From a virus, in the IMG/VR virus record IMGVR_UViG_3300003322_000736, positions 1 through 28,100 of that record: a stretch of DNA of 28,100 bases; one strand, given 5' to 3'. Positions 8,316 to 28,099 of the stretch are shown piece by piece. Every line of letters starts with the position of its first letter. Position 1 is the first letter of the stretch. Below the pieces are notes generated by a model that was given only the letters and a program-made list of their open reading frames with translations, did not search any database and had not been told where the DNA came from. The position numbers were made by a program, and so were the translations under genes.

Positions 8316-8330
8316 TCGGAGAGCGCTCGC

Positions 8331-9659: not shown

Positions 9660-9672
9660 TCAAGGATCAATC

Positions 9673-12686: not shown

Positions 12687-12687
12687 T

Positions 12688-13685: not shown

Positions 13686-14635
13686 GGTATTACGACATAG
13701 CGATCACGCCAAAGGGATCGTCAACGCCGCTATCGACATGGAGTTCTCATCCTGGCGGAGTTTATGATCCTGCCGCCGCGAACATAGAATTTGACATGCC
13801 AGTTCTTCCCTATGGGACGCCGGCAGGCGGTCAATCGATCACCATAGAAGGCGTGTCGCTTCAAATGATCAGCCAAGCCAAGCAACTGGCTGGCCGGAAC
13901 CTGACGATCAAGGCGGGCATGCAGAAAGGGTTGCCTTTGGCGAACCCCGCTCAAGCCGGTGTCATCATCGCAGGGAACATCTTTCAAGCCTTCGGAAATT
14001 GGGAAGGCACGGAAATGTCCCTGGATTTTGTGTTATTTCCCGCCGTGTATGACTATAACAATCAGGGAAATTTTTCTTTTTCGTGGTACGCCGGGAGTCC
14101 TTTGTCAGATGCCATAAAGGCAACCTTGGCTATCGCATATCCTGATTTTCAGATCAGCATAAACATCGGGTCCAACCTGGTGTTGAACAACGATGAATTT
14201 AACGTCTGCCATACGCTAGACGAATTTGCGTCATACATTGGCGACCTTACGGAAGGCATCTTCCAACAGCGTGTAAATATCACCATTCAGGCGGGCAAAC
14301 TTGTCATTTATGACAAAACCTACCAGCCATCGCCGATTCAAATCGCCTTCACGGATCTCATCGGTCAACCGACATGGATCGAGCCGCAGGTCATGCAGAT
14401 GAAAACGGTGATGCGAGCTGACCTACAGCTTGGCTCGGTGATTACCATGCCGCAAGGTATGCAAAATGCGCCGGGGCTAGTCAATACGACGGCTGCATCC
14501 TATCCATCCAGTTCAAAATACGAAAGCGCATTTCAGAACAACTTCTTGATTACCGAGCTTAGGCAAGTTGGAAGCTATCGATCTTCCGATTCCTCGGCTT
14601 GGTCTACCATTTTCAACTGCACTCCGGTGATCTGA
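13682..14635 (+). CDS. Baseplate hub-like protein
   Basis: 317 residues from a GTG that overlaps the previous stop as GTGA. The order before a spike gene, the size and the domain character (beta-rich N-terminal half, a central LSDAIKATLAIAYPDFQISINIG helix, then a second beta region) fit a gp27/gpD-type hub, the trimeric ring on which the spike sits. It ends in a TGATG overlap with the spike gene. I infer the role from order and do not see a decisive motif. Confidence 0.55.
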   Translation: MRYYDIAITPKGSSTPLSTWSSHPGGVYDPAAANIEFDMPVLPYGTPAGGQSITIEGVSLQMISQAKQLAGRNLTIKAGMQKGLPLANPAQAGVIIAGNIFQAFGNWEGTEMSLDFVLFPAVYDYNNQGNFSFSWYAGSPLSDAIKATLAIAYPDFQISINIGSNLVLNNDEFNVCHTLDEFASYIGDLTEGIFQQRVNITIQAGKLVIYDKTYQPSPIQIAFTDLIGQPTWIEPQVMQMKTVMRADLQLGSVITMPQGMQNAPGLVNTTAASYPSSSKYESAFQNNFLITELRQVGSYRSSDSSAWSTIFNCTPVI

Positions 14636-15240
14636 TGGGTAACAACTACCTTAAGAACTGGCTGCAGAAGACGCAGAATCAGCAGGCGATCAGTCGCGCC
14701 ATGCAGATTATGCAGACAAAAGGCTATGCGTTTCCATGTCGCGTCGTTTCCGTTTCGGGCTCCATTGTCACGGTTGCTTTTGAGATTCAGGATGACACGC
14801 TAACGCTTCCACAGGTGACGATTCCAAAGGCCGAAAGCCAATGGATTCGATCACCGACGCAGGTTGGCGAATTTGGCATTACGGTGCCAGCCGATGCCTA
14901 TCTTGGCGGCATTTCGGGACTTGGTGGCGGAACGGCGAATATGACTCGCCGCGGCAATCTTTCGTCATTGGTTTATGTGCCCTGCGGAAGCAAGAATTTC
15001 CCGCACGTCGATCAGAATGCCGCTTATATCGCGGGGCCGCAAGGTGCGGTGATTCAGACGCAAGATGGCACGTCATCCATAGTGGTCAATGAATCAGGAA
15101 TTACCATGACTTTTGGCGGAAAAGTCGTGACGCTTAACGGATCCGGCTTCACTATCGATGGCATCTTGTTCGATACGCACAAGCATATCTATTCGCCCGG
15201 AACAGGAACACCAACGGATACGGGTGGTCCTGTGTCATGA
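14635..15240 (+). CDS. Baseplate spike protein (gpV/gp138-like) with HxH tip
   Basis: 201 residues. I chose the ATG at 14635 because it makes a TGATG overlap; an upstream in-frame start at 14599 lies inside the hub gene. Residues about 30-90 suit an OB-fold. The C-terminal half is a repetitive beta region (AVIQTQDGTSSIVVNESGITMTF in part) ending in DTHKHIYSPGTGTPTDTGGP, with H182 and H184 as the HxH pair. Phage spikes of the P2 gpV and phi92 gp138 kind bind an iron ion through such tip histidines. It would pierce the outer membrane on contraction. Confidence 0.8.
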   Translation: MGNNYLKNWLQKTQNQQAISRAMQIMQTKGYAFPCRVVSVSGSIVTVAFEIQDDTLTLPQVTIPKAESQWIRSPTQVGEFGITVPADAYLGGISGLGGGTANMTRRGNLSSLVYVPCGSKNFPHVDQNAAYIAGPQGAVIQTQDGTSSIVVNESGITMTFGGKVVTLNGSGFTIDGILFDTHKHIYSPGTGTPTDTGGPVS

Positions 15241-15584
15241 GGACCTATGGGCGCATAACCAATTCGGACGGAAGCCTAAGTTGGGTTGTCGTAACGACCG
15301 ACGCCAATGGGTATAACGACAACGTATATCTGACAAATCTCGCCCATGTCCTAAAGCTCAATCTGAACGAGTCACCGTTCTACGCCAATTATGGGATTCC
15401 GCAGTATCAAACGGTCATCACGCAGGTCTTCCCCGATTACTACGCGATGATCACGCAGATGCAGTTTGCGCCATATTTCGCATCTCTGACGATAACTCGA
15501 CGTCCAACGAGTAATCCACCCATCTACGATGTCACGGCAGTAACGCATAGCGGTGCCATCATCAACAAGATCATTGCGACATGA
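15237..15584 (+). CDS. Baseplate wedge protein, gp25/gpW-like
   Basis: 115 residues with ATGA overlaps on both sides. Its place between spike and gpJ-like wedge, its size, and the segment LTNLAHVLKLNLNESPFYANYG fit the gp25/gpW (or Mu gp46) wedge group, though the classic EPR motif of gp25 is not present. The C-terminal strands (ITRRPTSNPPIYDVTAVTHSG) would contribute to the wedge core. Confidence 0.6.
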   Translation: MRTYGRITNSDGSLSWVVVTTDANGYNDNVYLTNLAHVLKLNLNESPFYANYGIPQYQTVITQVFPDYYAMITQMQFAPYFASLTITRRPTSNPPIYDVTAVTHSGAIINKIIAT

Positions 15585-16792
15585 CCGATTCGACCTCCAT
15601 ACCGGTAGTTATGACCTCGGCTGGCGCGGTCGCCACCCCTCCGGAAGTGCTACGGACAACGTTAGTATCACAAGTGGAGGCAACCAATCCGGACTACACT
15701 GCCAACCTGCCCGGCGAATTGGTTGAGGATATAGCGTCCACGGATGTGGGTGCGATGGCGATGATCGATCAAGCGAGAGTGGATGCAATTAACAGCTTGA
15801 CGCCATATGGCGCTAATGCCTTCGTTCTTTCGCAACAAGGAATTATGTTGGGAATTCTACAGGGAAAGTCGACCAACACGAGTGTTCTCGTCGTTATCTC
15901 CAGCACAAATTCCAATGGCTATGTCATACCAGCTGGATTTATTGTTGGAGATGGTACTAATCAATATATAATTCAGGATGGCGGCATCATCGGAACAAGT
16001 GGATCTACGGCTCCTATGCTGGCAGTGGCGAGTCAATCAGGCTCTTGGCCAGTTCCATCCAATTCAGTCACGCAGATAGTCACATCAGTTCCTAGCCCTT
16101 ATAGCCTGACGGTCAACAATCCACAGGCCGGGACGCCATCCACGGGATCGGAATCGGTTCAAGACTACCGCTCGCGAATTATTCAAGCAGTTCGTATAGC
16201 TGGACAAGGTACACCCGACTATATACAAACCCTGATCAAGGCCGTTCCGGGCGTAACGCCGCGCCTTGTGTCTATCCTGCAATCTACTTTTGGATGGGAA
16301 ATTCTGTGCGGTGGCGGCGATCCCTACCAGGTAGCCTTTGCCATCTATCAGGGAACGCTTGATCTCTCCACGATCGTTGGGTCTAACACGTCCTCTCGCA
16401 ATGTCAATGTAACGATTACGGATGGCCCAAACCAATACACGCTAACCTATGTGAATCCGCCGCAACAGGTCGTCGGCGTTCAGGCCGTATGGAATACGGA
16501 TCTTCCAAGTTTCACATCAGGAGGTCAGGTGAATCAGGATGGCGCCACGGCCATCATGAATTACATTAACGGCATTATCGTCGGTCAGCCGCTCAACTTG
16601 ATGGGTCTACAAAATGCCTTCCAATCAGCTGTTTCCTCAATTCTACCTGTCGAGAACCTATCGGCATTGACATTCACTATTACGGTCAATGGTTCGGTTG
16701 TGACGCCGGAGGCAGGAACAAGCCTGATCCTCTCTGATCCAGAGAGCTACTTCCAGATCAGCGCCACTGGCATCACGGTCACGCAGGGCTGA
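15581..16792 (+). CDS. Baseplate J-like wedge protein
   Basis: 403 residues with an ATGA overlap. The N-terminus contains the helical block ELVEDIASTDVGAMAMIDQARVDAIN and the SLTPYGANAFVLSQQGIMLGI turn typical of gpJ/gp47 wedge proteins. Next come a beta region with GxIxG-type strands and an ESVQDYRSRIIQAVRIAGQGTPDYI helix, also standard for this family. The family builds the outer ring of contractile baseplates. Strong agreement of motif order, length and position. Confidence 0.8.
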   Translation: MTDSTSIPVVMTSAGAVATPPEVLRTTLVSQVEATNPDYTANLPGELVEDIASTDVGAMAMIDQARVDAINSLTPYGANAFVLSQQGIMLGILQGKSTNTSVLVVISSTNSNGYVIPAGFIVGDGTNQYIIQDGGIIGTSGSTAPMLAVASQSGSWPVPSNSVTQIVTSVPSPYSLTVNNPQAGTPSTGSESVQDYRSRIIQAVRIAGQGTPDYIQTLIKAVPGVTPRLVSILQSTFGWEILCGGGDPYQVAFAIYQGTLDLSTIVGSNTSSRNVNVTITDGPNQYTLTYVNPPQQVVGVQAVWNTDLPSFTSGGQVNQDGATAIMNYINGIIVGQPLNLMGLQNAFQSAVSSILPVENLSALTFTITVNGSVVTPEAGTSLILSDPESYFQISATGITVTQG

Positions 16793-16793
16793 T

Positions 16794-17513
16794 ATGTTGA
16801 CCGAATCGTTCTCACAGGTCCCTCTAACGCAAGTCATCCTGAGCTACCTCTATCAGGAGTATCAGGACGATGAGGATTTGCAGGCTTTCGTCAATAGCTT
16901 TAACGGTATTTCGCAGGGCTACCTTGACTGGTTTTCCAATACGCCATTGAGCGTCTATACATCGCCCAACATCTCTGGTCCGCTCCTGGACTGGGTAGGT
17001 CAAGGTCTCTACAACATTTTTCGACCCGTCCTATCGAATTCCACGTCGCGCTCCTATGGCTCCTATAACACGGCCCCGTATGACACATTAGCCTTCCGTG
17101 TGAGGCATAAGATCACATCGGGTTCTTCAAGCCTGGCAAACGACGATCTCTATAAAAGAACGCTGACATGGCATACCTATCTAGGCGATGGCCGCCAAAT
17201 GTCCGTGATATGGCTACGTCGCCGAGTCGCACGGTTCCTTTATGGCGTTGACGGTACCGACATTCCTGATATCAGCTTGTTGAATAATGTCAGTATCACT
17301 CGCTCTTCAACCGGGTATATGGGCCGATTTGCTTCATCTCCCTATAACACCCAAGCCTATAGCACTCGAAAAAGCAAAGAGAATCTTTCCGCAAGATCCC
17401 TACAGATAAGAATTCCTTCCGGCGTTACTTCATCGCAGTTCAAGAGCATATTCGATGGCGGATTTCTCGCCACGCCATTCCAAGTGAAAATATCGGTATT
17501 GATCAGTTCCTGA
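16794..17513 (+). CDS. Baseplate/tail protein, DUF2612-like
   Basis: 239 residues starting one base after the previous stop. Residues 1-60 are helical (LYQEYQDDEDLQAFVNSFN, then QGYLDWF), followed by ISGPLLDWVGQGLYNIFRP, a pattern I know from DUF2612 proteins that link wedge and fibre, in the same place as gpI of P2. The C-terminal half is basic and beta-rich. A clear terminator follows. Confidence 0.7.
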   Translation: MLTESFSQVPLTQVILSYLYQEYQDDEDLQAFVNSFNGISQGYLDWFSNTPLSVYTSPNISGPLLDWVGQGLYNIFRPVLSNSTSRSYGSYNTAPYDTLAFRVRHKITSGSSSLANDDLYKRTLTWHTYLGDGRQMSVIWLRRRVARFLYGVDGTDIPDISLLNNVSITRSSTGYMGRFASSPYNTQAYSTRKSKENLSARSLQIRIPSGVTSSQFKSIFDGGFLATPFQVKISVLISS

Positions 17514-17535
17514 TCGATATCGCACCGAGACCACC

Positions 17536-17560
17536 AAGGCGTCCCTAGGGCGCCTTTTTT
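17536..17560 (+). terminator. Rho-independent terminator between baseplate and fibre genes
   Basis: AAGGCGTCC, loop CTA, GGGCGCCTT (nine pairs, one G-U), running into six T at 17555-17560. It ends 13 bases before the ATG of the fibre gene. Confidence 0.85.
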
Positions 17561-17573
17561 ATTGGGCGACTTC

Positions 17574-18632
17574 ATGGCCACTTACATCTTTGCCAATAAC
17601 GTAAACACTCAGCTGGCCGCGGCGGCCAGCAGCGCAGCAACGACACTTACGCTTGCCAGTTCTGCCAATCTTCCGACGCTCTCGGCAGGCCAATCGATGC
17701 CGCTAACGCTTAATGACGCGGCGACCGGTCAGGTTTATGAGGTCGTCTATGTAACGGCGATCAGCGGCGTCACGCTGACCGTTACGCGAGGCCAGGAGGG
17801 CACCACTGCGCAGAATTGGAACATCGGCGACTTCGCTTTCTGTGCACCAACGGCGAGTACTTTGGCGCCCGTGCAGGGCAATCCAGCAAATACCTTTCAA
17901 GTCGCCCCCGCCACCGCTTCAAGTCAGGCCGCGCAGTTGAGCCAAGTGCTAGGCAAGCAGCAGCTTTTCACGGCGAGCGGTTCGTTTACAGTACCCGCGG
18001 GCGTCACAACGATCTATGGCAGTGGTTGCGGTGGCGGCAGCGGCGGTGGCGGCGGCGGCGGTAATACTTCCACAGGCGCCACAGGCGGTGGTGGTGGCGG
18101 TGCAGGCGCTCAATTCATTTACAAGCAAGCCATCACCGTCGTGCCGGGCCAAGTTTTGACGATCACCATTGGTACGGGAGGCAATGGTGGCAGTGCAGGA
18201 TCATCCGCGGGCGGCAACGGCGGCAACGGCACGGCTGGGACATCGACGACAGTCAGCGGTACAAGTCCTACTGTGAGCATTACACTGCAGCCAGGCGGTT
18301 TCGGTGTAGGTTCGATTGGCAATACAGGCGGGAGCAATAGCGGTCCGGGTAATGGCGGCACGCCGCCGACCGGCGCGCAGGCTGGCGCAGGCGGCACGAT
18401 CGGTCTCCCCAACCTTACAGGTCTATCGCCAGCACCTGGTTTTGGTGGCGCAGGCGGCGGTACGCCATTTGGCGTAGGTGGTCTAGTGTCCTCCGTTGCG
18501 TCGGGCGCTAACGGGCATGCCGGTGTCGGCTTTGGTGCGGGCGGTGCGGGCGGTAACGGCGCTACAACGGGTGGCCTTGCTGGAGGTGCAGGCGGCGCAG
18601 GCGCACCTGGCATGTTTTTAATCGAATGGTAA
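17574..18632 (+). CDS. Tail fibre/adhesin with glycine-rich C-terminal domain
   Basis: 352 residues from ATG 17574; a TTG at 17562 is in frame but would lie against the terminator. Residues 1-100 are a virion-binding N-terminus I know from many fibres (FANNVNTQLAAA, LTLASSANLPTLSAGQ, VTRGQEGTTAQNW). Residues 131-147 (FTASGSFTVPAGVTTIY) introduce a glycine-rich domain with runs of up to seven Gly, ending in GMFLIEW. Such domains form polyglycine helix bundles in phage adhesins (S16 gp38 is the known structure) and present variable receptor-binding loops. The ribosome site is weak. It probably determines host range with the next gene. Confidence 0.75.
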   Translation: MATYIFANNVNTQLAAAASSAATTLTLASSANLPTLSAGQSMPLTLNDAATGQVYEVVYVTAISGVTLTVTRGQEGTTAQNWNIGDFAFCAPTASTLAPVQGNPANTFQVAPATASSQAAQLSQVLGKQQLFTASGSFTVPAGVTTIYGSGCGGGSGGGGGGGNTSTGATGGGGGGAGAQFIYKQAITVVPGQVLTITIGTGGNGGSAGSSAGGNGGNGTAGTSTTVSGTSPTVSITLQPGGFGVGSIGNTGGSNSGPGNGGTPPTGAQAGAGGTIGLPNLTGLSPAPGFGGAGGGTPFGVGGLVSSVASGANGHAGVGFGAGGAGGNGATTGGLAGGAGGAGAPGMFLIEW

Positions 18633-18642
18633 GGATAAAAAA

Positions 18643-20394
18643 ATGAGCGTTCCGGCATCGGATGTTGTATTCACGAATGAGGGTACGGGCGGCGTTGCGC
18701 GCTCACTGGCTGATAAACTAAGTGAATCCGCTTTTGCATCAGCGGGAGACTTTGACAATCTCGCCGATGCCTGCGCAGCGTCAGATGTCATCAACGTTTC
18801 GGTTACTGTCGACGGAAGCACGACGTCTATCGCTAATCCTTCGGTTATGGACGCGCAGCTAATTGGCGATGGTGCTGTAACGGGTATAACTCGCAAACGG
18901 GTCATTCCACGCGTCTCGCCGTCTGACGATTTCGATGATGTGGATATTTCTGCGGCAATTCATCTCAAACAGTTGAACACCGCATACAACCCCGTTGTTG
19001 TTCTGCTTGGCGATAGTTTGTCAACGTATTTTGCCAATAGCATCGCGCGCAGTGACATGTTGGCTGAATGCCTTCGTACGGCATTGCAGGATCAGCTTGG
19101 GCCTATTCGTTTTTATGATCGAAGTATCTCGGGGACGAGCTATACCAATTTTCTTGGTAACAATTACAACGCATCGATCAGTTGGTACACCAATTCCTCG
19201 TGGGGATGGTACCAATATGTGCAGCAACTCGCTCCCGATATGGTAGTTCTTGCTTGGGGCATGAACGACAATTCGTCAATCAAAATGCAAGCTATCGCCA
19301 ACGTTGTGCAGTGGTTGACAAATCCGGCTAATCTACCCAAAACGCCCACGATCGTTTTTGCGACCAATCTTGTGCCTAGTCCATCAACACCCGCAAGCCT
19401 GGATGGCGTAGCGGGTCAGTTCACGCGCGACATATCGGCGGGCGCCGTACGAACGTACGCAAAGTTCTACGGTTATGGTTTGCTGGATTTTCACCGAAAA
19501 GTATGCCGTGTGCGCGACGGTTTCGATCCCGTATCAAGCGCTATCGGAAATACACAAACCATTTCAGCTGTTACATCGGGATCGCAACAAAATATCACCG
19601 GCACGAAACCGTGCATGGATTGGAAAGCGCGCATCTATTTCAATGCGGATGCGCTCAACACGACCAACACGATGACGATGTTGCTCGGCGCTGGCGGCAA
19701 TGATTTCTTGGCGATCGCACGCCCATCTTCCAATCAGTTGGAATTTACACTTTCCGCAGGGGCGTCTGATCAACTTGTTTATCTAAACAAAACAGTCAAC
19801 TATACACTACCATCAGGTAGTGGCTACTATCTTGTTGTCGAACGTTCCAACAATGGTGTAACGATTTATCAAGACTTGACTAGCAATGCGGGTGGCTATA
19901 GTGATCCGATTTTCAGCAGCAAGATCATCGCCACAGGCGGCGATTACACGCCTCGCATCACCAGTACAGCAGGAGGCTTTTTAGTCCAAGCCGATCTGTC
20001 TTATGGATCGCCGCGGCTCAACCGGCCTTCAATAAAAAATAGTGTGCTGTGGGGTGACGGAAGTCAGTCCGTCGGAGAGTATGGTGGGAGCGGTTTCAAC
20101 CATGCTAGCGGCTGGATGGCAACGCATGTTTATCGCCCCATGCTGCGTAATGTTCAGTGGTGCTATCCTCAGACGCCGCGCGGTACTGTTTACGTAGGCG
20201 TTGGCGCATCATCCTATTCGGTAGGTTTGCCACAGTTGGAAGGATCTGATCAATACCAAGTTTATTGGTCTCCGGTAGGGGGTCCATTGCCACCTGGTTA
20301 CGTGTCCGCAAAATCGATAAGCGGGTTTACCATTCAGTTTACGACGCAAACGACAAGCGCGTCCTATATGACGTGGTACATTGTTCGCCAGTAG
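18643..20394 (+). CDS. Tailspike with SGNH/GDSL esterase domain
   Basis: 583 residues with AAGGA before the ATG. Residues 1-110 are a probable virion anchor. The SGNH fold begins at about 115: block I VVLLGDSLS with Ser125, block II Gly164 (SISGTSY), block III GMND with Asn208. The catalytic His is most likely H487 in FNHASGWMATHVY; the usual Asp three residues before it is not there. Between block III and H487, residues about 300-455 form a beta-rich insert (KARIYFNAD, FLAIARPSSNQLEFTLS, YYLVVERSNNGVTIYQD) that resembles a lectin-type jelly roll. Expected role: removal of O-acetyl groups from surface polysaccharide during adsorption. Substrate unknown. Confidence 0.75.
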   Translation: MSVPASDVVFTNEGTGGVARSLADKLSESAFASAGDFDNLADACAASDVINVSVTVDGSTTSIANPSVMDAQLIGDGAVTGITRKRVIPRVSPSDDFDDVDISAAIHLKQLNTAYNPVVVLLGDSLSTYFANSIARSDMLAECLRTALQDQLGPIRFYDRSISGTSYTNFLGNNYNASISWYTNSSWGWYQYVQQLAPDMVVLAWGMNDNSSIKMQAIANVVQWLTNPANLPKTPTIVFATNLVPSPSTPASLDGVAGQFTRDISAGAVRTYAKFYGYGLLDFHRKVCRVRDGFDPVSSAIGNTQTISAVTSGSQQNITGTKPCMDWKARIYFNADALNTTNTMTMLLGAGGNDFLAIARPSSNQLEFTLSAGASDQLVYLNKTVNYTLPSGSGYYLVVERSNNGVTIYQDLTSNAGGYSDPIFSSKIIATGGDYTPRITSTAGGFLVQADLSYGSPRLNRPSIKNSVLWGDGSQSVGEYGGSGFNHASGWMATHVYRPMLRNVQWCYPQTPRGTVYVGVGASSYSVGLPQLEGSDQYQVYWSPVGGPLPPGYVSAKSISGFTIQFTTQTTSASYMTWYIVRQ

Positions 20395-20408
20395 CCAAGC
20401 ATTGGTGT

Positions 20409-20421
20409 ATGCTTTTAGCAT
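20409..20421. other. Short inverted repeat before the methyltransferase gene
   Basis: ATGCT, three T, AGCAT, in the 49-base gap between tailspike and methyltransferase. Too short for a terminator by itself; it may be an operator half-site pair or chance. Confidence 0.3.
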
Positions 20422-20443
20422 GGATAGCTAACGAGGATGGCTT

Positions 20444-21139
20444 ATGGACTTCGATTATACTGGCTCGGATTTGCTTACAGCAAACGAAAAGGCGTTGCAT
20501 TCCTACAATCGATGGATTGTTGATCGTTTCGTAGATATCGCAAAGCAGCATGGATCAAAAGCAATTGTTGATTTTGGGGCGGGAATTGGAACGCTATGCT
20601 CAATATTTCGCGATACATGCAATATATCTCCGATAGCCCTTGAAATAGACCAAGATCAAAGAAATGTCATATCCCTTCGTGGGTTCCAGTCCGTTAGCTC
20701 TATAGATGAACTTCCGTCTCATGTTGATCTGATATATACGTCCAACGTACTGGAGCATATAGAGGACGATATCGAAGCCCTCCGTAAGCTTGGCGAACAT
20801 CTTTTGCCTACAGGAAGGCTTGCTATCTTTGTCCCAGCTTTTAATGCACTTTGGTCATCAATGGATGACAAGGTTGGACATTATCGTCGGTATACAAAGC
20901 GGATACTTACGCGGCATTTAGAGCAAGCAGGTTATGAAATCGAATCAATTAAATATGCCGATTCTTTGGGGTTTTTCCTGGCCCTGCTATTTAAGACCAT
21001 TGGAAGCAATTCCGGTGAGCCTAGTGACGCCTCACTTCGCTTCTTTGATCGATATCTATGGCCAATAAGTCGATGCCTTGATGTGATCACTCATCCATTC
21101 TTTGGGAAGAACATCCTGGCGGTAGCGAAGAAGGTTTAA
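20444..21139 (+). CDS. Class I SAM-dependent methyltransferase, probable lysogenic-conversion gene
   Basis: 231 residues with GAGG seven bases before the ATG. Motif I is VDFGAGIGT (42-50), the acidic residue after strand 2 is E67 (ALEID), and DLIYTSNVLEHIEDD spans 95-109. GHYRRYT (145-151), followed by LEQAGYEIESIKYADSLGFF, is the ending I know from methyltransferases encoded with polysaccharide and lipid-glycan genes. Base composition is lower in GC than the virion genes. It is the last late-strand gene, next to the attachment site, where temperate phages carry cargo genes. A role in modifying host surface glycan is an inference; DNA methylation is unlikely because no DNA-recognition domain or DPPY-type motif is present. 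Confidence 0.75.
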   Translation: MDFDYTGSDLLTANEKALHSYNRWIVDRFVDIAKQHGSKAIVDFGAGIGTLCSIFRDTCNISPIALEIDQDQRNVISLRGFQSVSSIDELPSHVDLIYTSNVLEHIEDDIEALRKLGEHLLPTGRLAIFVPAFNALWSSMDDKVGHYRRYTKRILTRHLEQAGYEIESIKYADSLGFFLALLFKTIGSNSGEPSDASLRFFDRYLWPISRCLDVITHPFFGKNILAVAKKV

Positions 21140-21432
21140 CCATCCGGCCACGGCCAGGGCTCGTCGGGCTCCTGTCCACCCGACCCAATGCGCATAGCCT
21201 GTCCCTTGATCTTGTGCTCATGGTGGCGTGCGTACCCATCGATCCACCGCTTCGCCTGCTTGAAGCTGGCGGCGTAGTACGGCCCTGGATTCGCCGGTCC
21301 CTTGCCTGGCGCAAACAGGATCTCCCATTCGTGTCCCATATCCCGCACTCGACAGAAGGGCTGTGCGGCGTAGTGCACGCGGAAGTAGAACGAGTCATCG
21401 ATCCACTGGCACTGCTCGTAGGTGTAGCCCAT
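21136..21432 (-). CDS. Small hypothetical protein between methyltransferase and attP
   Basis: 98 residues. Its stop codon overlaps the methyltransferase stop (tail to tail, three shared bases region 21136-21139). Aromatic and Trp/Tyr-rich, with HEWEILFAPGKGPANPG, KQAKRWIDGY and an acidic Trp/Pro ending (EPWPWPDG). I do not recognise a family. The ribosome site GAGG is close to the ATG. It lies between the late arm and the attachment core, a place for cargo or early-lysogeny genes. Confidence 0.55.
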   Translation of the reverse strand: MGYTYEQCQWIDDSFYFRVHYAAQPFCRVRDMGHEWEILFAPGKGPANPGPYYAASFKQAKRWIDGYARHHEHKIKGQAMRIGSGGQEPDEPWPWPDG

Positions 21433-21452: not shown

Positions 21453-21471
21453 TGGTCTCACGCTGGTCTCA
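21453..21471 (+). repeat. Direct repeat TGGTCTCA x2, left of attachment core
   Basis: TGGTCTCA at 21453-21460 and again at 21464-21471, an 11-bp spacing from start to start. Related TGGTCACA copies lie on the other side of the core at 21627-21653. Candidate arm-type binding sites for integrase or excisionase. Confidence 0.45.
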
Positions 21472-21508
21472 GTCGCATCCTAAGTTATTGATTTAATGTC
21501 TAAGACAA

Positions 21509-21558
21509 GCCCCCTCCTAAGGGGAAGGTCGCACGTTCGAATCGTGTCGGGGGCACCA
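21509..21558 (+). other. Attachment-site core (attP-like): 3' part of a tRNA-Arg(CCU) gene
   Basis: From the anticodon arm on, this reads as tRNA: stem Cs at 21510-21513, anticodon CCT at 21516-21518, stem GGGG at 21521-21524, T arm GCACG-TTCGAAT-CGTGT at 21531-21547, acceptor strand CGGGGGC, discriminator A and CCA at 21556-21558. The 5' half is absent: the expected GCCCCCG acceptor strand and D arm are not found upstream. A 3' tRNA fragment beside an integrase gene is the standard att core. Because phage genes lie on both sides, it is best read as attP. Confidence 0.8.
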
Positions 21559-21570
21559 TTTTTCAATGAC

Positions 21571-22641
21571 TTACACGATGGATCGTTTCATGCGTACCGT
21601 TCTTTTGCGACGTTTTACGCGACGCTTGGTCACAGTGGTCACAGCAGTGACCAAGAGCTTATCCAATAGCTTTACAGCGCCGTCCGAACCCTCTGGCGTA
21701 AGGTGCGCATAGTACTTCTCTGTCGTCGCATAGTCAGCATGCCCCATCAGGATTTGAATGCGTCTTAGCGGCACGCCGGCCATGGTCAGATTTGCACCAA
21801 AGGTGTGGCGGAGTCGGTGCAGGGTACCCCCTATCTTGGCCTTCTTGGCATCCGCACGGAACCAATCACTAAGCGTATCTTTGTGCACGCTGACGATGGG
21901 GTCAGGCAATTGGTCAAGCGCCTGCTTGGCGCATTTGTTCAATGGGATCTCCCGCCATTTGCCGGACTTCGTACGGCCTTCCTCATTCTCGCCAGGCTCG
22001 GACTCAATCTGTAGCTTCCCACGTACGACCTTGTCTTTGGTGAGACCGGCAGCCTCGCCGCGGCGCAGTCCCGTGTGCGCCATGAACCGCCACAGCGCAG
22101 CGCGCTTCGGGTTTGCCTTATACAAGGCATTCAGCGCCTTTGCGTCATAGAACCGAACCGCGACACTCCGCACACCCTTGGGTGCGGTCACACCCTCTAG
22201 CGGGTTATGCGTGAACAGCTTCCAAGCAATGCCGCGCTTGATGGCAGCTTTCAGCCGACGAATTTCTTTCCCCACAGTTTCCTTTGAAACCCTATCGATG
22301 GTAAGTCGATCCGTCTTGTACTTGACCATCTCTGTAGGTTGGATGGTATCGATCTGGCGTGTTCCATATTTGGCCTTGAACAAGCGAAGCTCGCTCGTAG
22401 CCTTGCTAATCGTGGTCGGGTGTTCTGCCTTGTACCACTCTAGATACGAATCGATGAAGTCGCCAAGCCTTGGCGCAGTCGCAATAATGCGAACGCCATA
22501 ATTGAGTTCTATTTCCTTCGCTGCTCGAATCTCCTCAGCTTCTCTAGCGCTAATCTTACCGATGGAGAGGCGTTGCCGCTTGGGATCGCGCCAGTTGAGG
22601 TAGGCAGATTCACCACGCCAGTAGAGGGTGACGCGGACCAT
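21571..22641 (-). CDS. int: Tyrosine recombinase (phage integrase)
   Basis: 356 residues. The catalytic set is complete: Arg193 in HTGLRRGEAAGL, a Lys at 225-228 (TKSGKWREIPL), HxxR at 275-278 (LHRLRHTFG), His301 in LMGHADYATT and Tyr310 or Tyr311 in EKYYAHL. The N-terminal part holds the arm-binding and core-binding domains (LYWRGESAYLNWRD at the start). The C-terminus is very basic (KRRVKRRKRTVRMKR). GGAG lies seven bases before the ATG, inside the upstream gene. The gene ends 12 bases from the tRNA-derived core, in keeping with integration into tRNA-Arg. Confidence 0.95.
   Translation of the reverse strand: MVRVTLYWRGESAYLNWRDPKRQRLSIGKISAREAEEIRAAKEIELNYGVRIIATAPRLGDFIDSYLEWYKAEHPTTISKATSELRLFKAKYGTRQIDTIQPTEMVKYKTDRLTIDRVSKETVGKEIRRLKAAIKRGIAWKLFTHNPLEGVTAPKGVRSVAVRFYDAKALNALYKANPKRAALWRFMAHTGLRRGEAAGLTKDKVVRGKLQIESEPGENEEGRTKSGKWREIPLNKCAKQALDQLPDPIVSVHKDTLSDWFRADAKKAKIGGTLHRLRHTFGANLTMAGVPLRRIQILMGHADYATTEKYYAHLTPEGSDGAVKLLDKLLVTAVTTVTKRRVKRRKRTVRMKRSIV
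21627..21653 (+). repeat. TGGTCACAG direct repeat plus inverted copy, right of attachment core
   Basis: TGGTCACAG at 21627-21635 and 21636-21644 back to back, then the inverted form CAGTGACCA at 21645-21653. They lie inside the 3' end of int, where they also encode a VTAVTTVTK stretch, so part of the repetition could be coding. The similarity to the TGGTCTCA pair on the other side is what makes them candidate arm sites. Confidence 0.45.
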
Positions 22642-22835
22642 TGTTTCGCTCCGTGGATTGCTGCATATAGCGCAGCCTTCTCGTACAGTTGACGTCCCAT
22701 GAAGTTGCGCGGGACTAATCCGTATTCAGATGCCTTGCGCCGGAAGTGGTCTTCGCTGACGCCGCAATAGAACGCCGCCTCAGTGACAGTCAGCCAATCT
22801 TTCCCGCTGATATCAATCTTCTCCGCCGCCCCCAT
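22509..22835 (-). CDS. HTH DNA-binding protein, probable excisionase
   Basis: 108 residues from ATG 22835, chosen because GGAGG ends five bases upstream. Residues 13-55 hold a winged-helix/HTH_17-like unit: WLTVTEAAFYCGVSEDHFRRKASEYG, then LVPRNFMGRQLYEKAAL. This is the pattern of small excisionases and MerR-type DNA-binding proteins. The C-terminal half is Ser/Thr/Pro-rich with a basic end (LEKLRRFEQRRK). It lies just upstream of int and overlaps it by 133 bases in another frame. Excisionase is the best reading from position; it may also regulate int. Confidence 0.65.
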   Translation of the reverse strand: MGAAEKIDISGKDWLTVTEAAFYCGVSEDHFRRKASEYGLVPRNFMGRQLYEKAALYAAIHGAKQWSASPSTGVVNLPTSTGAIPSGNASPSVRLALEKLRRFEQRRK

Positions 22836-22868
22836 ATCACCCTCCAAATACCAATACGGTCTTCAGCT

Positions 22869-23057
22869 TCATTTCGGCGGCTCCAATGGCATCCAGTGAG
22901 TTGGCGTGTAATAGACATACATGGATCCATCTTCTAAAAACCACAAACGCCCGCGACGCTTCATGACATGCTCGTTACGTATACCATTTTTGTCATCGAT
23001 CTTTGTCATGACGGCCTGATTCTCCGGCGCGCTCTCAATAGGATTCCAATCACCCAT
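22869..23057 (-). CDS. Small DUF551-like protein
   Basis: 62 residues from the ATG at 23057, which has an AGGAGAAGGAG site just upstream; longer in-frame extensions run against the neighbouring gene. It begins WNPIESAPENQAVM, the hallmark of small DUF551-type phage proteins (W-x-P-I-x-S-A-P), and ends MYVYYTPTHWMPLEPP. The family has no known function. It follows the Cys-rich small gene with an eight-base overlap. Confidence 0.7.
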   Translation of the reverse strand: MGDWNPIESAPENQAVMTKIDDKNGIRNEHVMKRRGRLWFLEDGSMYVYYTPTHWMPLEPPK

Positions 23058-23223
23058 GCTCCTTCTCCTGCACGGCCATGGCGGCATCAATGAGCTTCCC
23101 TCCGCAATAGAGGCAAAACTCGGCGCTATTGTCCGAAGGGGTTCCATCGTTGAACAAGAAGCTGTGTCCGCATGCTGTGAAATATTGCCCCAGGTCGTCA
23201 AACGTCCATACGCACTCTTTCAT
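23050..23223 (-). CDS. Small Cys-rich (zinc-ribbon-like) phage protein
   Basis: 57 residues. Cysteines at 4, 18, 37 and 40, with CGH at 18-20 and FCLYCGGKL at 36-44. The pattern WTFDDLGQYFTACGHSF, a short acidic Asn/Gly linker, then CxxCG matches small phage proteins with a treble-clef-like metal site. Too short to be called by length alone, but composition, overlap with the next gene and motif support it. Function unknown; metal binding is inferred from the CGH and CxxC pairs. Confidence 0.7.
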   Translation of the reverse strand: MKECVWTFDDLGQYFTACGHSFLFNDGTPSDNSAEFCLYCGGKLIDAAMAVQEKEHG

Positions 23224-23259
23224 CTGATCCGATGATTCGGGATGGGTGAAAAGCTTAGT

Positions 23260-23595
23260 TCATGGCGGAATGTCCTCGCTATAAAGCTCAACTACTGAGT
23301 AGTGGCATTCAAACTTTTTGCAGATTTCGCCAACCGCCTCCTTGCTGGCGGAGAGGTGGGCGTCGATGTTAGCCAATGAATCGGCAAGCTTTTTTATTTC
23401 TGCTGCCCAATCTACGCACTGCCTGTCGGCATTATCTTCAGCAAACCTAGCATCGCGCGCGAGCGCCTTTGGTACACGCGCAGGCCATCGCCAACCATCT
23501 ATGCTAGGCATGCCTTTTCGTTGAGCCATTTCTGCACCGAGTTTGATAAGCTGCCCGCGCACCTGCTCCAACGTCATCGGTTTGTTGGTGGTCAT
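23260..23595 (-). CDS. Hypothetical early protein
   Basis: 111 residues from ATG 23595 (MTTNKPMTLEQ). Mostly helical and charged, with a Trp-rich segment (SIDGWRWPARVPKALARDARF), then a helical region AEIKKLADSLANIDAHLSAS that could form a coiled coil, and KKFECHYSVVELYSEDIPP at the end. I do not recognise a family. Four bases separate it from the gene before. It belongs to the early operon read towards int. Confidence 0.55.
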   Translation of the reverse strand: MTTNKPMTLEQVRGQLIKLGAEMAQRKGMPSIDGWRWPARVPKALARDARFAEDNADRQCVDWAAEIKKLADSLANIDAHLSASKEAVGEICKKFECHYSVVELYSEDIPP

Positions 23596-23599
23596 GGGA

Positions 23600-23770
23600 T
23601 TAATCATCCAGATCAATGATGCGGGTTACCCAGCCAACCTGTGCATTTTCTTCGAGCCACATCATTGCGGCGTCAGCGGACGAAAATACTTTGTTTTCCA
23701 TGTCATCTTCGTTTTGGATAACATGCACAAGATCGGCATTATCCGCGTCAAGCAGAATAACGGCACTCAT
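23600..23770 (-). CDS. Small acidic hypothetical protein
   Basis: 56 residues, with AAGGGAA just before the ATG; the start overlaps the stop of the preceding gene by four bases (ATGA). Acidic, with a two-strand, one-helix look: LLDADNADLVHVIQNEDD, VFSSADAAMMWLEENAQV, WVTRIIDLDD. This layout, with a "F-S-S-x-x-A-A-x-x-W-L" helix, is common in small phage proteins of unknown function. Too short to be picked up by a 60-codon cut-off. Confidence 0.65.
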   Translation of the reverse strand: MSAVILLDADNADLVHVIQNEDDMENKVFSSADAAMMWLEENAQVGWVTRIIDLDD

Positions 23771-24174
23771 TTCCCTTCCCCTTGCGCTGGCGCGGCAGCA
23801 GCTAGAAATGCAGCATAGTTAAGCAGCATTTGCTTGCCCGTAGCACGCGATGTCCAGTTATTAGCCTCATCTAACACCATTGCTGCGCTAAATCCGTCTG
23901 GATCATCCGGCACGCTCACCGCAGCGGATGGCGCGGATTGGAGGGCGGCGCATAATTGTTCCATCCAGAACCCGGCAGCCATTGGCTTGCGATCAGCCAA
24001 TTTGCACAGCCTGAAATATTCATCGCCCACTTTGCGAGCTAGATCAGTGGGCGTCACCACCGCGCGCTGCTGGCGTTCGGCGAGCCATGCGCGAAGATAT
24101 ATAGCAACTTGTGGATCGCCAGCATCATCACAACCCTTAGCAAGAAACTCGATCTGCTCGTTCGTGTAGGTCAC
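23767..24174 (-). CDS. Hypothetical early protein
   Basis: 135 residues from the GTG at 24174, chosen because GTG and the preceding TGA overlap as GTGA; an upstream in-frame ATG lies deep in the neighbour. N-terminus TYTNEQIEFLAKGCDDAGDPQVAIYLRAWLAE is helical; the middle contains ARKVGDEYFRLCKLADRKP; the end is Ala-rich. Family not recognised. Part of the coupled early gene string. Confidence 0.6.
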   Translation of the reverse strand: MTYTNEQIEFLAKGCDDAGDPQVAIYLRAWLAERQQRAVVTPTDLARKVGDEYFRLCKLADRKPMAAGFWMEQLCAALQSAPSAAVSVPDDPDGFSAAMVLDEANNWTSRATGKQMLLNYAAFLAAAAPAQGEGK

Positions 24175-24455
24175 GATTGCACCGCCTTTTTCTTCATGCG
24201 CGTGATGACGCCGCGAAGCGAATTGCAACGCCTGTCCGCATGCTCACGGGCCTGGCGCTCTGATTCGTACCAGCGTTTATATCGATCACGCTCGCTTACA
24301 AGCTGATCATGGTTTTTCACCATCAGCTCGCAGGCATCGGCGATGCGCATAAGGCTTCCGGTCTTGAGCGAATCGTTATCAAGCCCGAAGCCTTCCTGCA
24401 TGTCACGGTAATACTCGCCGCGTGATTCTTGTCGGTAATATTTACGCTCGCTCAC
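24171..24455 (-). CDS. Small basic coiled-coil protein
   Basis: 94 residues from GTG 24455, supported by AGGAGG five bases upstream and a GTGA overlap with the ninB stop. Tyr/Arg/Glu-rich: ERKYYRQESRGEYYRD at the start, then a long helix (KNHDQLVSERDRYKRWYESERQ, in two parts) of coiled-coil character, then a basic end KKKAVQS. No known family. Its coupling to ninB suggests a DNA-metabolism or accessory role, unproven. Confidence 0.6.
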   Translation of the reverse strand: MSERKYYRQESRGEYYRDMQEGFGLDNDSLKTGSLMRIADACELMVKNHDQLVSERDRYKRWYESERQAREHADRRCNSLRGVITRMKKKAVQS

Positions 24456-24868
24456 GCCCACCTCCTACCTAATTCCTCGTCTGAGTCGCGGATGCCACGG
24501 GCGGCTTTGACTACGTCGCACCAGTAGACCGGATTGCATGTAAGACCTTGCTCACGCGGTTCGTCACCGATGTAGAAAGCCATGGTGATCGCGTCTGTAG
24601 CCTGCGTTCGCGTGAGCTTGAGACTTGATCCACCGAGCATTACAAAGCCCCGGGGACCGTTTCCCATATCGATGCCTGGCAGCATTCGCCAGCCCAACAC
24701 CGTGCCGCTGATGAAGTGACGCCAGTCGTCTTTCGACAACCGATTACCGTGCCACTGCATCTGCTCCAAATCACCACACGCGGCATTGAGCAAGCGCCGC
24801 TGAGCGTCGGACATGAAGCCCTCGCCAGATAGGCGCCAGTCGGCCTCGGTGATGGGCTTTGCGTTCAT
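24452..24868 (-). CDS. ninB: NinB family recombination protein (lambda Orf-like)
   Basis: 138 residues from ATG 24868, in a TAATG overlap with the ssb stop. NinB hallmarks: ITEADWRLS near the start, GTVLGWRMLPGID in the middle, then GPRGFVMLGGSSLKLTRTQA and VYWCDVVKAARG. In phage lambda, Orf/NinB is a recombination mediator that binds SSB and single-stranded DNA and replaces RecFOR. It lies right after ssb and the exonuclease, so it belongs to the phage recombination set. Confidence 0.85.
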   Translation of the reverse strand: MNAKPITEADWRLSGEGFMSDAQRRLLNAACGDLEQMQWHGNRLSKDDWRHFISGTVLGWRMLPGIDMGNGPRGFVMLGGSSLKLTRTQATDAITMAFYIGDEPREQGLTCNPVYWCDVVKAARGIRDSDEELGRRWA

Positions 24869-25305
24869 TACCAAAGCTGCCTGCGCTGATACGGGGCGAA
24901 CGGGATATCGTCATCGGGCGGTACGTCAGAGCCGCCGCCGTGCGCGGGAGCAGATGAGCGGCTACGAGACTTCGATTCACCGGATAGCTTGCCACCGAGC
25001 AGCGCTACGTCATTCACCAGGACTTCCAGCGAATAACCCTTCCCGCCGTCTTTGCGGTCAAATTCCTCATTGCGCAATTCGCCGCTTCCGCCAATCTGCG
25101 TACCTTTCTTGAGTTCCAGCTTCGCGAGACCTTCGGCACGCTTCCCGAATGCTTTGACCGTGACCCAATTAGTTCCCTTGTTATCTCCATAGCCGTAGCC
25201 AATCGCAACGCGTGCAGACCATACGGCGGTACCGCTTCCGGTGTATCGCGTTTCAGCGTCAGCACCCAGCCGGCCAGTGAAGGAATAGTTGTTTAGATCG
25301 CTCAT
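24868..25305 (-). CDS. ssb: Single-stranded DNA-binding protein
   Basis: 145 residues from ATG 25305, with GAGGG upstream and an ATGA overlap with the exonuclease stop. The OB-fold occupies about residues 1-106 (NNYSFTGRLGADAETRYT, TNWVTVKAFGKRAE, GSGELRNEEF). A Ser/Gly-rich linker leads to the acidic motif DDDIPF at 131-136, which normally ends SSB proteins and binds partner proteins. Here nine more residues follow (APYQRRQLW). Encoded between exo and ninB, as in a recombination/replication operon. Confidence 0.9.
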   Translation of the reverse strand: MSDLNNYSFTGRLGADAETRYTGSGTAVWSARVAIGYGYGDNKGTNWVTVKAFGKRAEGLAKLELKKGTQIGGSGELRNEEFDRKDGGKGYSLEVLVNDVALLGGKLSGESKSRSRSSAPAHGGGSDVPPDDDIPFAPYQRRQLW

Positions 25306-25955
25306 GCTGCCCTCACATTTATTTGGTTGATGATTGCCTGCACGTCGGCCTCCATGAGAAGGCAAGCCTGTTCAAGCCGACTGATGTACTCGTCGTCTCG
25401 TTCGACGCGCTGCACATAAAGGCGTAGTTGTTCGGGAAAATCGGGGTGGTATGAAATGAAGTCCCACCACAGACGCTCTGTTACCCATAGGCCGCCTTGA
25501 ATCTGTTCGATGTGCTCCTGCGGTAGTCCGGTCAGCAGGGTTTCAAGGTGAACCTCAGGCGACTCAGGAGATTTGATTTCACCGCCGCCTACCGTGCCGA
25601 CAAGAAAATCAGGCGATGCGCCAATGAAGTCGTACTTTGGGTGCTGGATGAATCCGCACATTTCGACAATGACGCCGGTTTCAGCCTGGTAGGCAGCGAC
25701 TGCCGCAGGCTCAACGTCTCGTCCCCACTGGAGCGCAAAAGCCTTGACCTGTTTTCGAGGCTTCATAGTCAGCCTCTCAGCCGCCAACTGATGCGCGTAG
25801 TTAACTAGGGCGAGAGGCTGCGGCTTGGGCTGGCCCTTGCGCGGGCCCGACTTGAACTCACCACGCTCACGCTCGACCATCACGTCATGCATGCGTGACG
25901 CAGTGATCTTACCGGCGCGTTCGGCGAACCATTCTTCGCTTCTCTGCTCGATCAT
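25302..25955 (-). CDS. exo: Lambda-type exonuclease (YqaJ family)
   Basis: 217 residues. The YqaJ nuclease core is complete: ITASRMHDV near the start, QWGRDVEPAA with Glu82, then GASPDFLVG with Asp116, and GGEIKSP with Glu126 and Lys128. These bind the metal ions of the lambda exonuclease fold, which digests the 5' strand of DNA ends and leaves 3' tails for an annealing protein. A candidate annealing gene lies directly upstream, SSB directly downstream, so the three work together in recombination. Confidence 0.92.
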   Translation of the reverse strand: MIEQRSEEWFAERAGKITASRMHDVMVERERGEFKSGPRKGQPKPQPLALVNYAHQLAAERLTMKPRKQVKAFALQWGRDVEPAAVAAYQAETGVIVEMCGFIQHPKYDFIGASPDFLVGTVGGGEIKSPESPEVHLETLLTGLPQEHIEQIQGGLWVTERLWWDFISYHPDFPEQLRLYVQRVERDDEYISRLEQACLLMEADVQAIINQINVRAA

Positions 25956-26782
25956 TGTTGATTCTCCGCGTCCGCCTTTTCGGCGATCTGCTGGTATTTA
26001 GGAAGGAGATCGGCGACAAGAAGTCGCTTGTCCTTTGCCCATCCCGCCCACATGGCGCGGAACTTCTCGACACCCATGGCTGCCACATCCAAAGCCTCCT
26101 TATCGGCGGCGTCACGCTCCGGGCCTTCTTTGATGGTCTGCTGTACGGCAGAGGCACCGGCGCTTGCGCGGTTCTGGCCTACAATCTCGGCCACAACTTC
26201 ATCCGGCAAATCCTCAATGTCCTGGGTAAAGATGTCGGATGCAGCAGTGGCGGTAATGACCGCATCTACCTGGGCGCGCTTCTTGGCCATCTTCAGAATC
26301 GTATTAGCGACGTCTGATGGATTGGTTCGAACCTGCTTCTTTTTCTCAACACGACCCTGCCACTTGGAAAACTTGATGCGGCGCCGGTTTTCCGGCGTAA
26401 CGTCGTATTCCTCGTCACAGATGGCAGCGCGCCAGGCGTACTTGTCTTCGTTGCTGCTGCATTCGCCGATACCGGCCCCCACAAAGGAGCCGTTTGACGA
26501 AAGCAGGTTTACGGTCACCCGGTAGGCGATCTCCCCGTCAGCGGACAAGTCTTCTACCTCCGGTTTAGCAGCGAGCCGGAAGGTTGCCATCAGCTTTTCG
26601 GCGCCGGCCTTATAGAGGCTCTTTGACTTGGTTCCAGGGATCGTCCCGTAATGGGTTCCATCCCTCATCACCTCAGCCATGACGTCCTGCATCAGGTTTA
26701 CATGCGCACGGACGTCTGCAGCGGTCAGCGATCGAGCGCCATACGCCTCGACTGCTGGCTGGAATTGAACAACCTGATTCAT
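25952..26782 (-). CDS. Candidate single-strand annealing/recombination protein
   Basis: 276 residues with GGAGG five bases before the ATG and an ATGA overlap into exo. The N-terminal half holds the conserved-looking HYGTIPGTKSKSLYKAGAEKLM and the segment ICDEEYDVTPENRRRIKFSKW; the middle has TNPSDVANTILKMAKKRAQVDAV and TQDIEDLPDE; the rest is helical and Ala-rich. I have met this family in phage recombination operons beside lambda-type exonucleases, but it is usually annotated as hypothetical. Position suggests the annealing partner of exo (Redbeta/RecT/Erf role). The biochemical role is inference. Confidence 0.6.
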   Translation of the reverse strand: MNQVVQFQPAVEAYGARSLTAADVRAHVNLMQDVMAEVMRDGTHYGTIPGTKSKSLYKAGAEKLMATFRLAAKPEVEDLSADGEIAYRVTVNLLSSNGSFVGAGIGECSSNEDKYAWRAAICDEEYDVTPENRRRIKFSKWQGRVEKKKQVRTNPSDVANTILKMAKKRAQVDAVITATAASDIFTQDIEDLPDEVVAEIVGQNRASAGASAVQQTIKEGPERDAADKEALDVAAMGVEKFRAMWAGWAKDKRLLVADLLPKYQQIAEKADAENQQ

Positions 26783-26818
26783 GAAATCCTCCGCCCTCTA
26801 CCGGATGGCGCGGTGTGG

Positions 26819-27244
26819 TTAGATCGGTTCTTCGACAAGTTCAGGGTGCAGTGCCGCCTTCAAGGACGCTTGCAGCTTCTCGATCTGCAGTTTCAGCGAA
26901 TCAATCTCGCGCGATTTTTCCTTAAGTTCGGCTTCTTTCTTATCGCGATACGCCTTGTTGCTCCGGTACACCTCTGGACTTTCGGCAACAAATTCGTCAC
27001 CAATCACGTCACCGCTTGTGATGATCTTGAGCGCCTCGCCATCGTTGTTATCAATGTCATAAGTATCACCCAGGACGATTGTCATGGAGGCTTTTGTAGT
27101 CTCCATTTCGCGCCATGATTTCTTGATAAACACCGCGTTCGTTTCCAGCATGCGAGCAATCGCGGGAAGCGACTCGGCAGCTTTTTCGGCTGGGATGTGG
27201 ATCGCGATGTGCGTCGCGTCTTTTGTTTCGATCAGTGCGTACAT
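26819..27244 (-). CDS. Hypothetical early protein with C-terminal coiled coil
   Basis: 141 residues, with AGGAGA before the ATG. Residues 1-92 look like a compact alpha/beta domain (YALIETKDATHIAIHIPAE at the start, SMTIVLGDTYDID further on). Residues about 95-132 form a charged coiled coil (KKEAELKEKSREIDSLKLQ and on) and the end is acidic. No family recognised. It is the gene just before the annealing protein and may be part of the recombination set or of its regulation. Confidence 0.6.
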   Translation of the reverse strand: MYALIETKDATHIAIHIPAEKAAESLPAIARMLETNAVFIKKSWREMETTKASMTIVLGDTYDIDNNDGEALKIITSGDVIGDEFVAESPEVYRSNKAYRDKKEAELKEKSREIDSLKLQIEKLQASLKAALHPELVEEPI

Positions 27245-27261
27245 TTCAAATCTCCTGCCAG

Positions 27262-27408
27262 CTACCCGCTGGCGTGTTGGTAGTGGGTGGGGTGGCCGGT
27301 GCTGATCTCCGGCTTTCCGGTTTCACGGATATGAGCCGACAGGTTTAACCGAACATCTCCACTGTCGATTTCTACCGTCTCTCTTATTGAAGTTCGGAAG
27401 ATTGTCTT
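27262..27408 (-). other. Open frame of 48 codons without a start codon
   Basis: Between two genes of the operon, one frame reads as protein-like sequence (SIRETVEIDSGDVRLNLSAH, then HIRETGKPEISTGHP) to a stop at 27262. The frame opens right after a TGA at 27409-27411 and contains no ATG, GTG or TTG start. Removing one A from the GTGAAAGACA stretch would join a GTG in the adjacent frame to it. It is either a small gene broken by a single-base change, or chance. No strong ribosome site is seen. The remaining gap up to 27452 shows nothing else I can support. Confidence 0.3.
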
Positions 27409-27452
27409 TCACTACGCAGTGCGCATCAGCCTGCGCATTCACCCCATAATCG

Positions 27453-27620
27453 TTACTTCGCCTTAGGCACTGTCACCCGAATCCTAGGCTTCTGCTGCCG
27501 AAGGTGATGACCTGCGCCGAAGAACTTTGCAGCCCAAATTGCGCGACGTTCGTTGTTGCTCAGTGGCCGATAGGTCTCGGCGCGCTGGTCGGCGCGAGTG
27601 AGGAAGTGAAGGACGTTCAT
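27453..27620 (-). CDS. Small basic hypothetical protein
   Basis: 55 residues; ATG overlaps the stop of the upstream gene as ATGA. Basic and Arg-rich: FLTRADQRAETYRPLSNNE, then RRAIWAAKFFGAGHHLRQQK, and a KPRIRVTVPKAK end. Coupling by ATGA overlap and the coding-like composition support it although it is short. No family recognised. A nucleic-acid-binding role is possible from the charge only. Confidence 0.6.
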   Translation of the reverse strand: MNVLHFLTRADQRAETYRPLSNNERRAIWAAKFFGAGHHLRQQKPRIRVTVPKAK

Positions 27621-28099
27621 GCCACTTCCTTCGCAGACTGGGCGATGACGTTCCCATCGATGTCAACCTCGACTGCAGCACGAACCACGCGCGGCGCTTT
27701 GCATTTAGCCGTTGCGTTGCGATCATGAATGGGCCGTAATTCGGAGACGCGGACGCCCACAGCTACAAACTTGGTTGCCTCTCGGAAATAGGCTAAGGCA
27801 TGCATTGGAGTGGGGCCGAAGTGAAGGCCCCCGCCGCATGAATTGTCCGCGCGGAAATCGTCGCAGGTTGTTTTCGAGCCAGGCGAATAGTCGAATCCAC
27901 GATCAGTGGTCCACTTGTCATTGACCGCCTTGTAGACTGTGGCGATACCGCGCTCCACTTTGACGCCGTGGTAGGCGCACCACTCTTTGCCGTCGAAGCT
28001 AGTGACCTTGGTATGGTCGATAACTACTCCGCCAGTTAGATGGACGGTCGCGTCATGGAGATGGACTGCGACAGAGCCGCACGCCGTCACCGTGGACGA
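27617..28099 (-). CDS. Uncharacterised phage protein, N-terminus cut by window end
   Basis: The frame is open to the right edge, so the start is probably outside; GTG 28090 is only a fallback. The N-terminal visible part (SVAVHLHDATVHLTGG) has alternating short Val/Ala/His strands, like the last rungs of a repetitive beta-helix that is common in this family. Next comes a conserved-looking domain: VYKAVNDKWTTDRGFDY, CGGGLHFGPTPMHALAYF and KFVAVGVRVSELRPI. I know this combination from phage proteins without assigned function. First gene of the visible early operon. Confidence 0.6.
   Translation of the reverse strand, partial: SSTVTACGSVAVHLHDATVHLTGGVVIDHTKVTSFDGKEWCAYHGVKVERGIATVYKAVNDKWTTDRGFDYSPGSKTTCDDFRADNSCGGGLHFGPTPMHALAYFREATKFVAVGVRVSELRPIHDRNATAKCKAPRVVRAAVEVDIDGNVIAQSAKEVA

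Follow-up and report, generated by a model that had tools for sequence, protein, structure and literature searches.

Why does a fragment amounting to about the last two thirds of a tRNA gene lie mid-sequence in the DNA of a temperate phage? The stretch analysed here, which we call the window, is a whole virus contig of 28,100 bases (28.1 kb). The original prediction, made from the letters of the window, read the fragment as a phage attachment site and the DNA around it as phage DNA in circular or virion form, or as the joint of two tandem prophages. In our best explanation, to which as a whole we assign a probability of about 0.9, the fragment is the core of an attP (P.core.P′) of the type used by tRNA-targeting tyrosine integrases, and the phage is a temperate one with a contractile tail, from Dyella or close Rhodanobacteraceae.

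The record is a linear fragment, whose ends interrupt the portal gene on the left and an early gene on the right. Late genes occupy the left side on the plus strand, and the integrase (int) and early genes the right side on the minus strand, so that the fragment is situated between the late arm and int as had been proposed (Table 1). The late arm encodes the portal protein (N terminus missing), a head morphogenesis protein, the major head protein, the tail sheath, a tape measure protein with a lytic domain, baseplate proteins, a tail fibre, an SGNH-like hydrolase and a methyltransferase. The early arm encodes a NinB-like protein, SSB, a YqaJ/RecE-type exonuclease and other proteins without an assigned function. 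Searches of the window with PHROGs and Pfam identified neither a terminase nor a repressor, and both genes presumably lie in the missing part of the genome; two terminase sets, one on either side of the core, were thus not present. Complete related prophages measure 39–47 kb, from which we infer that the window represents about 60–70% of the genome.

Table 1. Features of the window that bear on the attachment site, in order of position
Feature	Position	Strand	Evidence or remark
Late arm	2..21139	+	PHROGs and Pfam matches; portal to tail fibre colinear with a Dyella prophage
98-aa ORF, late-gene end beside the att core	21136..21432	-	Homologues in G010 (72%), L148 (79%) and L149 (73%)
P-arm, two direct TGGTCTCA repeats	21453..21471 (21453-21460, 21464-21471)	+	Probable arm-type integrase sites; function inferred
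P-arm TAAGTYATTGA	21481..21491	+	Motif search of the window; inverted partner of 21563-21573
att core, 3′ part of tRNA-Arg(CCU)	21510..21558	+	49-bp exact identity to complete Dyella tRNA genes
P′-arm TAAGTYATTGA	21563..21573	-	Motif search of the window
Tyrosine integrase, 356 aa	21571..22641	-	PHROG 1, E 1.4e-51; Pfam Phage_integrase (PF00589), E 1.7e-17
P′-arm, two direct TGGTCACA repeats, inside the int 3′ end	21627..21643 (21627-21634, 21636-21643)	+	Probable arm-type sites
112-aa ORF overlapping the int start	22509..22847	-	Homologues 48-59% identical
Early arm	22869..28099	-	PHROGs and Pfam; last ORF truncated by the contig end

Two proteins of the late arm have unusual domain compositions. 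The 603-aa protein encoded at 1830–3641 (+), between the head morphogenesis and head protein genes, carries an N-terminal NUDIX hydrolase domain, an unusual fusion, and almost the entire protein matches phrog_6216, a phage family without a known function. The tail sheath protein (8331–9659, +) contains an insert at about residues 127 to 205 that matches tail-fibre and baseplate families. Its best alignment with the sheath of the Dyella prophage G006 starts only at residue 202, and the insert may not be shared.

The core, which is present once in the window, reads CCCCCTCCTAAGGGGAAGGTCGCACGTTCGAATCGTGTCGGGGGCACCA. It comprises the anticodon stem-loop (anticodon CCT at 21516–21518), the variable loop, the T arm, the 3′ acceptor strand and an encoded CCA. 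Its assignment as a 3′ piece of tRNA-Arg(CCU) was confirmed, with the correction that the exact match to real tRNA genes covers 49 bp from 21510, leaving out base 21509, with which the fragment had been said to begin. ARAGORN found no complete tRNA in the whole window. A functional phage tRNA gene was rejected as an interpretation, because the 5′ part is missing and ARAGORN calls no gene. Complementation by a phage-encoded tRNA, as described in PMC10865867, was also rejected for the window: a core of 49 bp is sufficient for the tRNA to be restored, and the window contains no further tRNA.

If the core is part of an attP, the complete gene in the host should contain it. An exact search of 84,980 species genomes with a 46-bp core query matched three loci, all of them in Dyella (Dyella choica, D. 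flagellata and D. nitratireducens), and ARAGORN identified each locus as a complete tRNA-Arg(CCU) gene. A 46-bp exact match that occurs in three species only, and always within tRNA-Arg(CCU), is not a chance match, and the expectation that the core would point to the host gene was borne out. In all three species the identity begins at 21510, where the anticodon stem starts, and extends to 21558, the CCA end; in D. nitratireducens it continues for 6 further bases.

A pattern search of 234 genomes of the family (102 with a match) revealed four T-stem variants of tRNA-Arg(CCU). The GCACG/CGTGT variant of the window was found in 12 genomes; the full 49-mer was present in the three Dyella genomes and missing from the other nine, which indicates that the core tracks one particular lineage of hosts. 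In these three Dyella genomes the window's integrase matched distant tyrosine recombinases only; no close relative of it was found, hence no lysogen of this phage. An exact search with a 41-base core gave no match in viral contigs, the window's own record being excluded. In a distant DNA search no phage record covered the junction, and the two matches obtained both fell in the exonuclease region.

The gene beside the core encodes the tyrosine integrase. It converges on the core, and its stop codon is 12 bp away. In related elements, integrases 63–70% identical to it adjoin tRNA-Arg(CCU) cores. Homologues of the 112-aa ORF occupy the corresponding place next to int in G010, G066, G087 and G125; the ORF itself matched no Pfam or PHROG family, and from its location it could possibly encode an excisionase.

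The sequences flanking the core have the features anticipated for the arms of an attP. The octamer TGGTCWCA occurs four times in the 28.1 kb, in one pair on either side of the core and all within 191 bp; 1.46 occurrences per window are expected from shuffled sequences, a figure to be read with the reservation that the motif was picked after being seen. GGTCACA-type repeats are located at the matching place in the relatives L012 and L015 and in the attR arm of G066, and were also called flanking the core in the prophage arms of G066. The block GGTCACAGYGGTCAC, or a close variant, is retained in L011, L012, L014, L015 and G066. A second motif, TAAGTYATTGA, has only two matches in the window, which flank the core in opposite orientation, and a similar sequence occurs beside the tRNA 3′ end in L010, L011, L012, L014 and L015. 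TAAGTYATTGA is a putative site for integrase or an accessory protein. The repeats on both sides would fit arm-type sites of a single integrase in an attP of about 200 bp. Within the core, the stem halves CCCC (21510–21513) and GGGG (21521–21524) form an inverted repeat around the 7-nt anticodon loop (21514–21520); these 4-bp halves are likely the core-type integrase sites, and the crossover probably takes place within the loop.

The relatives of the integrase show both forms of the site. Integrases with 65–67% identity are encoded beside a complete tRNA-Arg(CCU) gene in L005, L010 and L011. In two Rhodanobacteraceae prophages the complete tRNA is found at the int end and a 3′ fragment at a distance: in G066 the fragment is identical over 50 bp and lies 39.5 kb away, in G125 it comprises 49 bp and lies 47.4 kb away. 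Contigs L012, L014 and L015 carry the tRNA fragment beside int within the contig. On the far side of the fragment L012 has a phage ejection gene and L015 a tail-fibre gene; in L014 the sole finding there was a weak match to a family whose function is unknown. Since G066 and G125 display attL and attR, and the three contigs have the fragment beside int, we interpret the fragment and integrase of the window as attP. The original prediction is supported in its interpretation as well as in its observation: att sites flank the integrated relatives, and the window has phage genes on both sides of the fragment.

The order of the arms leads to the same conclusion. The Dyella prophage G006 is colinear with the late arm of the window from portal to tail fibre (40–70% amino acid identity) and also carries a 66% homologue of one early gene. 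The borders of G006 are the two copies of a 74-bp tRNA-Leu repeat, 47.2 kb from each other; int is located immediately within one border, and the late genes extend toward the opposite one. In the element G010 a homologue of the 98-aa ORF is at one end, and int, the exonuclease and the 276-aa gene are at the other. About 42 kb separate the 98-aa gene from int in G010, compared with 138 bp across the core in the window. The late and int ends, which are opposite prophage ends in the relatives, are thus joined at the fragment in the window, as they would be in attP. A search for the portal gene in the integrase relatives gave no match, and int and the late module therefore seem to have been inherited separately.

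The 98-aa ORF is the gene immediately to the left of the core, where a host gene would have spoken against attP. It is not a host gene: its homologues adjoin tRNA genes or 3′ tRNA fragments, at the att sites of other elements. The family had no Pfam or PHROG match. It was located beside a tRNA or a tRNA 3′ fragment in all four elements in which it was found (the window, L148 1074–1361, L149 343–597 and G010). The adjoining tRNAs differ between elements, and the gene recurs at the att end away from int.

Some elements of these groups have a different arrangement. G010 (L055–L057; region 10345–10421 and around 55000) seems to contain the 5′ half of tRNA-Arg(CCU): the complete tRNA is at the end away from int and the 5′ half, with 44-bp identity, is beside int. 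Its arms have CTCTACA repeats on both sides instead of TGGTCWCA. Islands with a 5′ fragment are a known minority, 159 against 3,760 with a 3′ fragment in Islander (PMC4383910). In L002 (about 9026–9100) and in L046 of G087 (about 5190) int and the tRNA fragment share one strand, an arrangement flipped with respect to the window; in G087, moreover, a short core is found next to int and the remainder of the 3′ part is missing there. The att region of the window is nearly symmetrical, with its stem-loop core, the inverted TAAGTYATTGA pair and the TGGTCWCA pairs. Together with the 5′ half in G010 and the int of L002 on the opposite side of the core, this symmetry suggests, as a speculative reading that we consider doubtful, that members of the integrase group may have taken up the tRNA as its 3′ or as its 5′ part and may have it on either side with respect to int. 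These elements would then make up a natural series in which the att orientation has switched at a single tRNA gene.

Two further observations concern relatives of the late module. L146 (contig G250) has a complete tRNA-Gly(UCC) at 2162–2234, in the interval from int to the late genes in which one would look for attP. This tRNA might be connected with tRNA-dependent lysogeny (PMC10865867) or with an integrated form. In the early region of G006, near int, there is a reverse transcriptase gene (Pfam RVT_1; L058 4025–5374, minus strand), possibly a retron, a diversity-generating (DGR) or a defence gene.

In what physical form the DNA was present can be approached through gene order. We compared late-gene relatives with a recognised integrase. 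In five metagenomic contigs and in the window, int is 16–19 kb downstream of the head gene and opposed to it. This attP order was thus found in all six metagenomic contigs with int (window included) and in none of the six isolate prophages, which all have int at the upstream record end (Fisher p = 0.002); because isolate IMG/VR records are trimmed at prophage borders, the comparison is biased toward the integrated form and is supporting, not decisive. The attP order arises in the phage circle or the virion, and also in the middle of a tandem array. The window is very probably non-integrated phage DNA, in virion or circular form.

A tandem array would give the same picture if the window were the joint of two identical or related prophages at one tRNA-Arg(CCU) gene, whose middle junction is also P.core.P′. 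The local sequence would then be identical, and the contig, linear and with no terminase identified, cannot be closed into one genome; in Islander 125 arrays are listed against 3,919 islands (PMC4383910). The same proportion makes a joint rare a priori (about 3%), none of the late-family isolate prophages has the attP order that all six metagenomic contigs with int show, and single elements (G010, G006) hold genes from both sides of the core, so that both arms fit one phage. We therefore regard the tandem joint as improbable. The two options of the original prediction, circular or virion form and tandem joint, both fit the junction, and the relatives favour the former; the check for circularity turned out negative, the record being classed as linear and having no end repeats, and the genome is incomplete.

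An assembly artefact, in which a common 49-bp tRNA fragment caused two phages, or two prophage ends, to be fused, has in its favour that many phages carry this fragment and that 49 bp of identity could mislead a short-word assembler. We consider it very unlikely, for all four TGGTCWCA octamers and the inverted pair span both arms, as they would in the attP of one integrase, and the arrangement recurs in the independent contigs L012, L014 and L015, of which L012 and L015 have phage genes for structural or ejection proteins beyond the fragment. Least probable of all, to the point of being negligible, is that the fragment is the attR of a single prophage and the right side is host DNA or the int of another element that neighbours the late genes by chance. 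A displaced 3′ fragment away from int does resemble the left side of attR, as in G066. To the right of the core of the window, however, there are not host genes but a cognate integrase 12 bp off, conserved P′ sites, SSB and the exonuclease; the sequence contradicts an attR save where an unrelated second element occupies the same tRNA, which is the tandem case.

Under the attP reading, integration would proceed as follows. The tyrosine integrase would bind the core-type sites in the anticodon-stem halves and the arm-type repeats on either side, and would then catalyse recombination between the circular phage DNA and the tRNA-Arg(CCU) gene of the host, with the exchange probably in the anticodon loop. 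The host would retain the 5′ part of the tRNA and receive an identical 3′ part from the phage. This would restore a complete tRNA at the int end (attL), whereas the far end beside the late genes (attR) would be marked by the displaced 3′ fragment. The window, in which both arms are joined, would most likely have been assembled from non-integrated phage DNA, either virion DNA or an excised circle.

This system is a standard tRNA-targeting tyrosine-integrase attP, ordinary and textbook in its mechanism. Class A of Islander is characterised by an anticodon-centred crossover and a 3′ tDNA fragment in attP, and anticodon-centred sites are the commoner class there (2,083 versus 1,836) (PMC4383910). 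The window shares several features with this class: a 3′ tDNA fragment in attP restores the target, the identity starts from the anticodon stem, and a tRNA and a fragment bound the integrated relatives. Its attP measures about 200 bp, compared with about 250 bp given in Islander (PMC4383910). No difference in kind was noted, the particulars being the Dyella tRNA-Arg(CCU) target and the TGGTCWCA arm repeat.

In Escherichia coli the tRNA-Arg CCU gene is argW. The KplE1/HK620-type elements integrate in argW with a tyrosine integrase and have core-type and arm-type sites beside int (PMC2951348); the corresponding sites of the window are putative. The intS promoter of KplE1 overlaps attL (PMC2951348), whereas in the window int converges on the core and the att region overlaps the 3′ end of int. 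Promoter autoregulation in the manner of KplE1 is therefore not expected. The Dyella prophage G006 (47 kb) shares the colinear late module with the window and has int and late genes at opposite ends, but it uses another integrase and targets tRNA-Leu(UAA), and in G006 the int end bears the 3′ tRNA fragment and the late-gene end the complete tRNA.

The contig is thus phage DNA carrying an attP and does not derive from a single integrated prophage. For a phage fragment that had no assigned host, the core provides a firm prediction of the host gene, the tRNA-Arg(CCU) gene of Dyella. The attP/int pair could possibly be developed into a tool for genomic integration in Dyella and other Rhodanobacteraceae.
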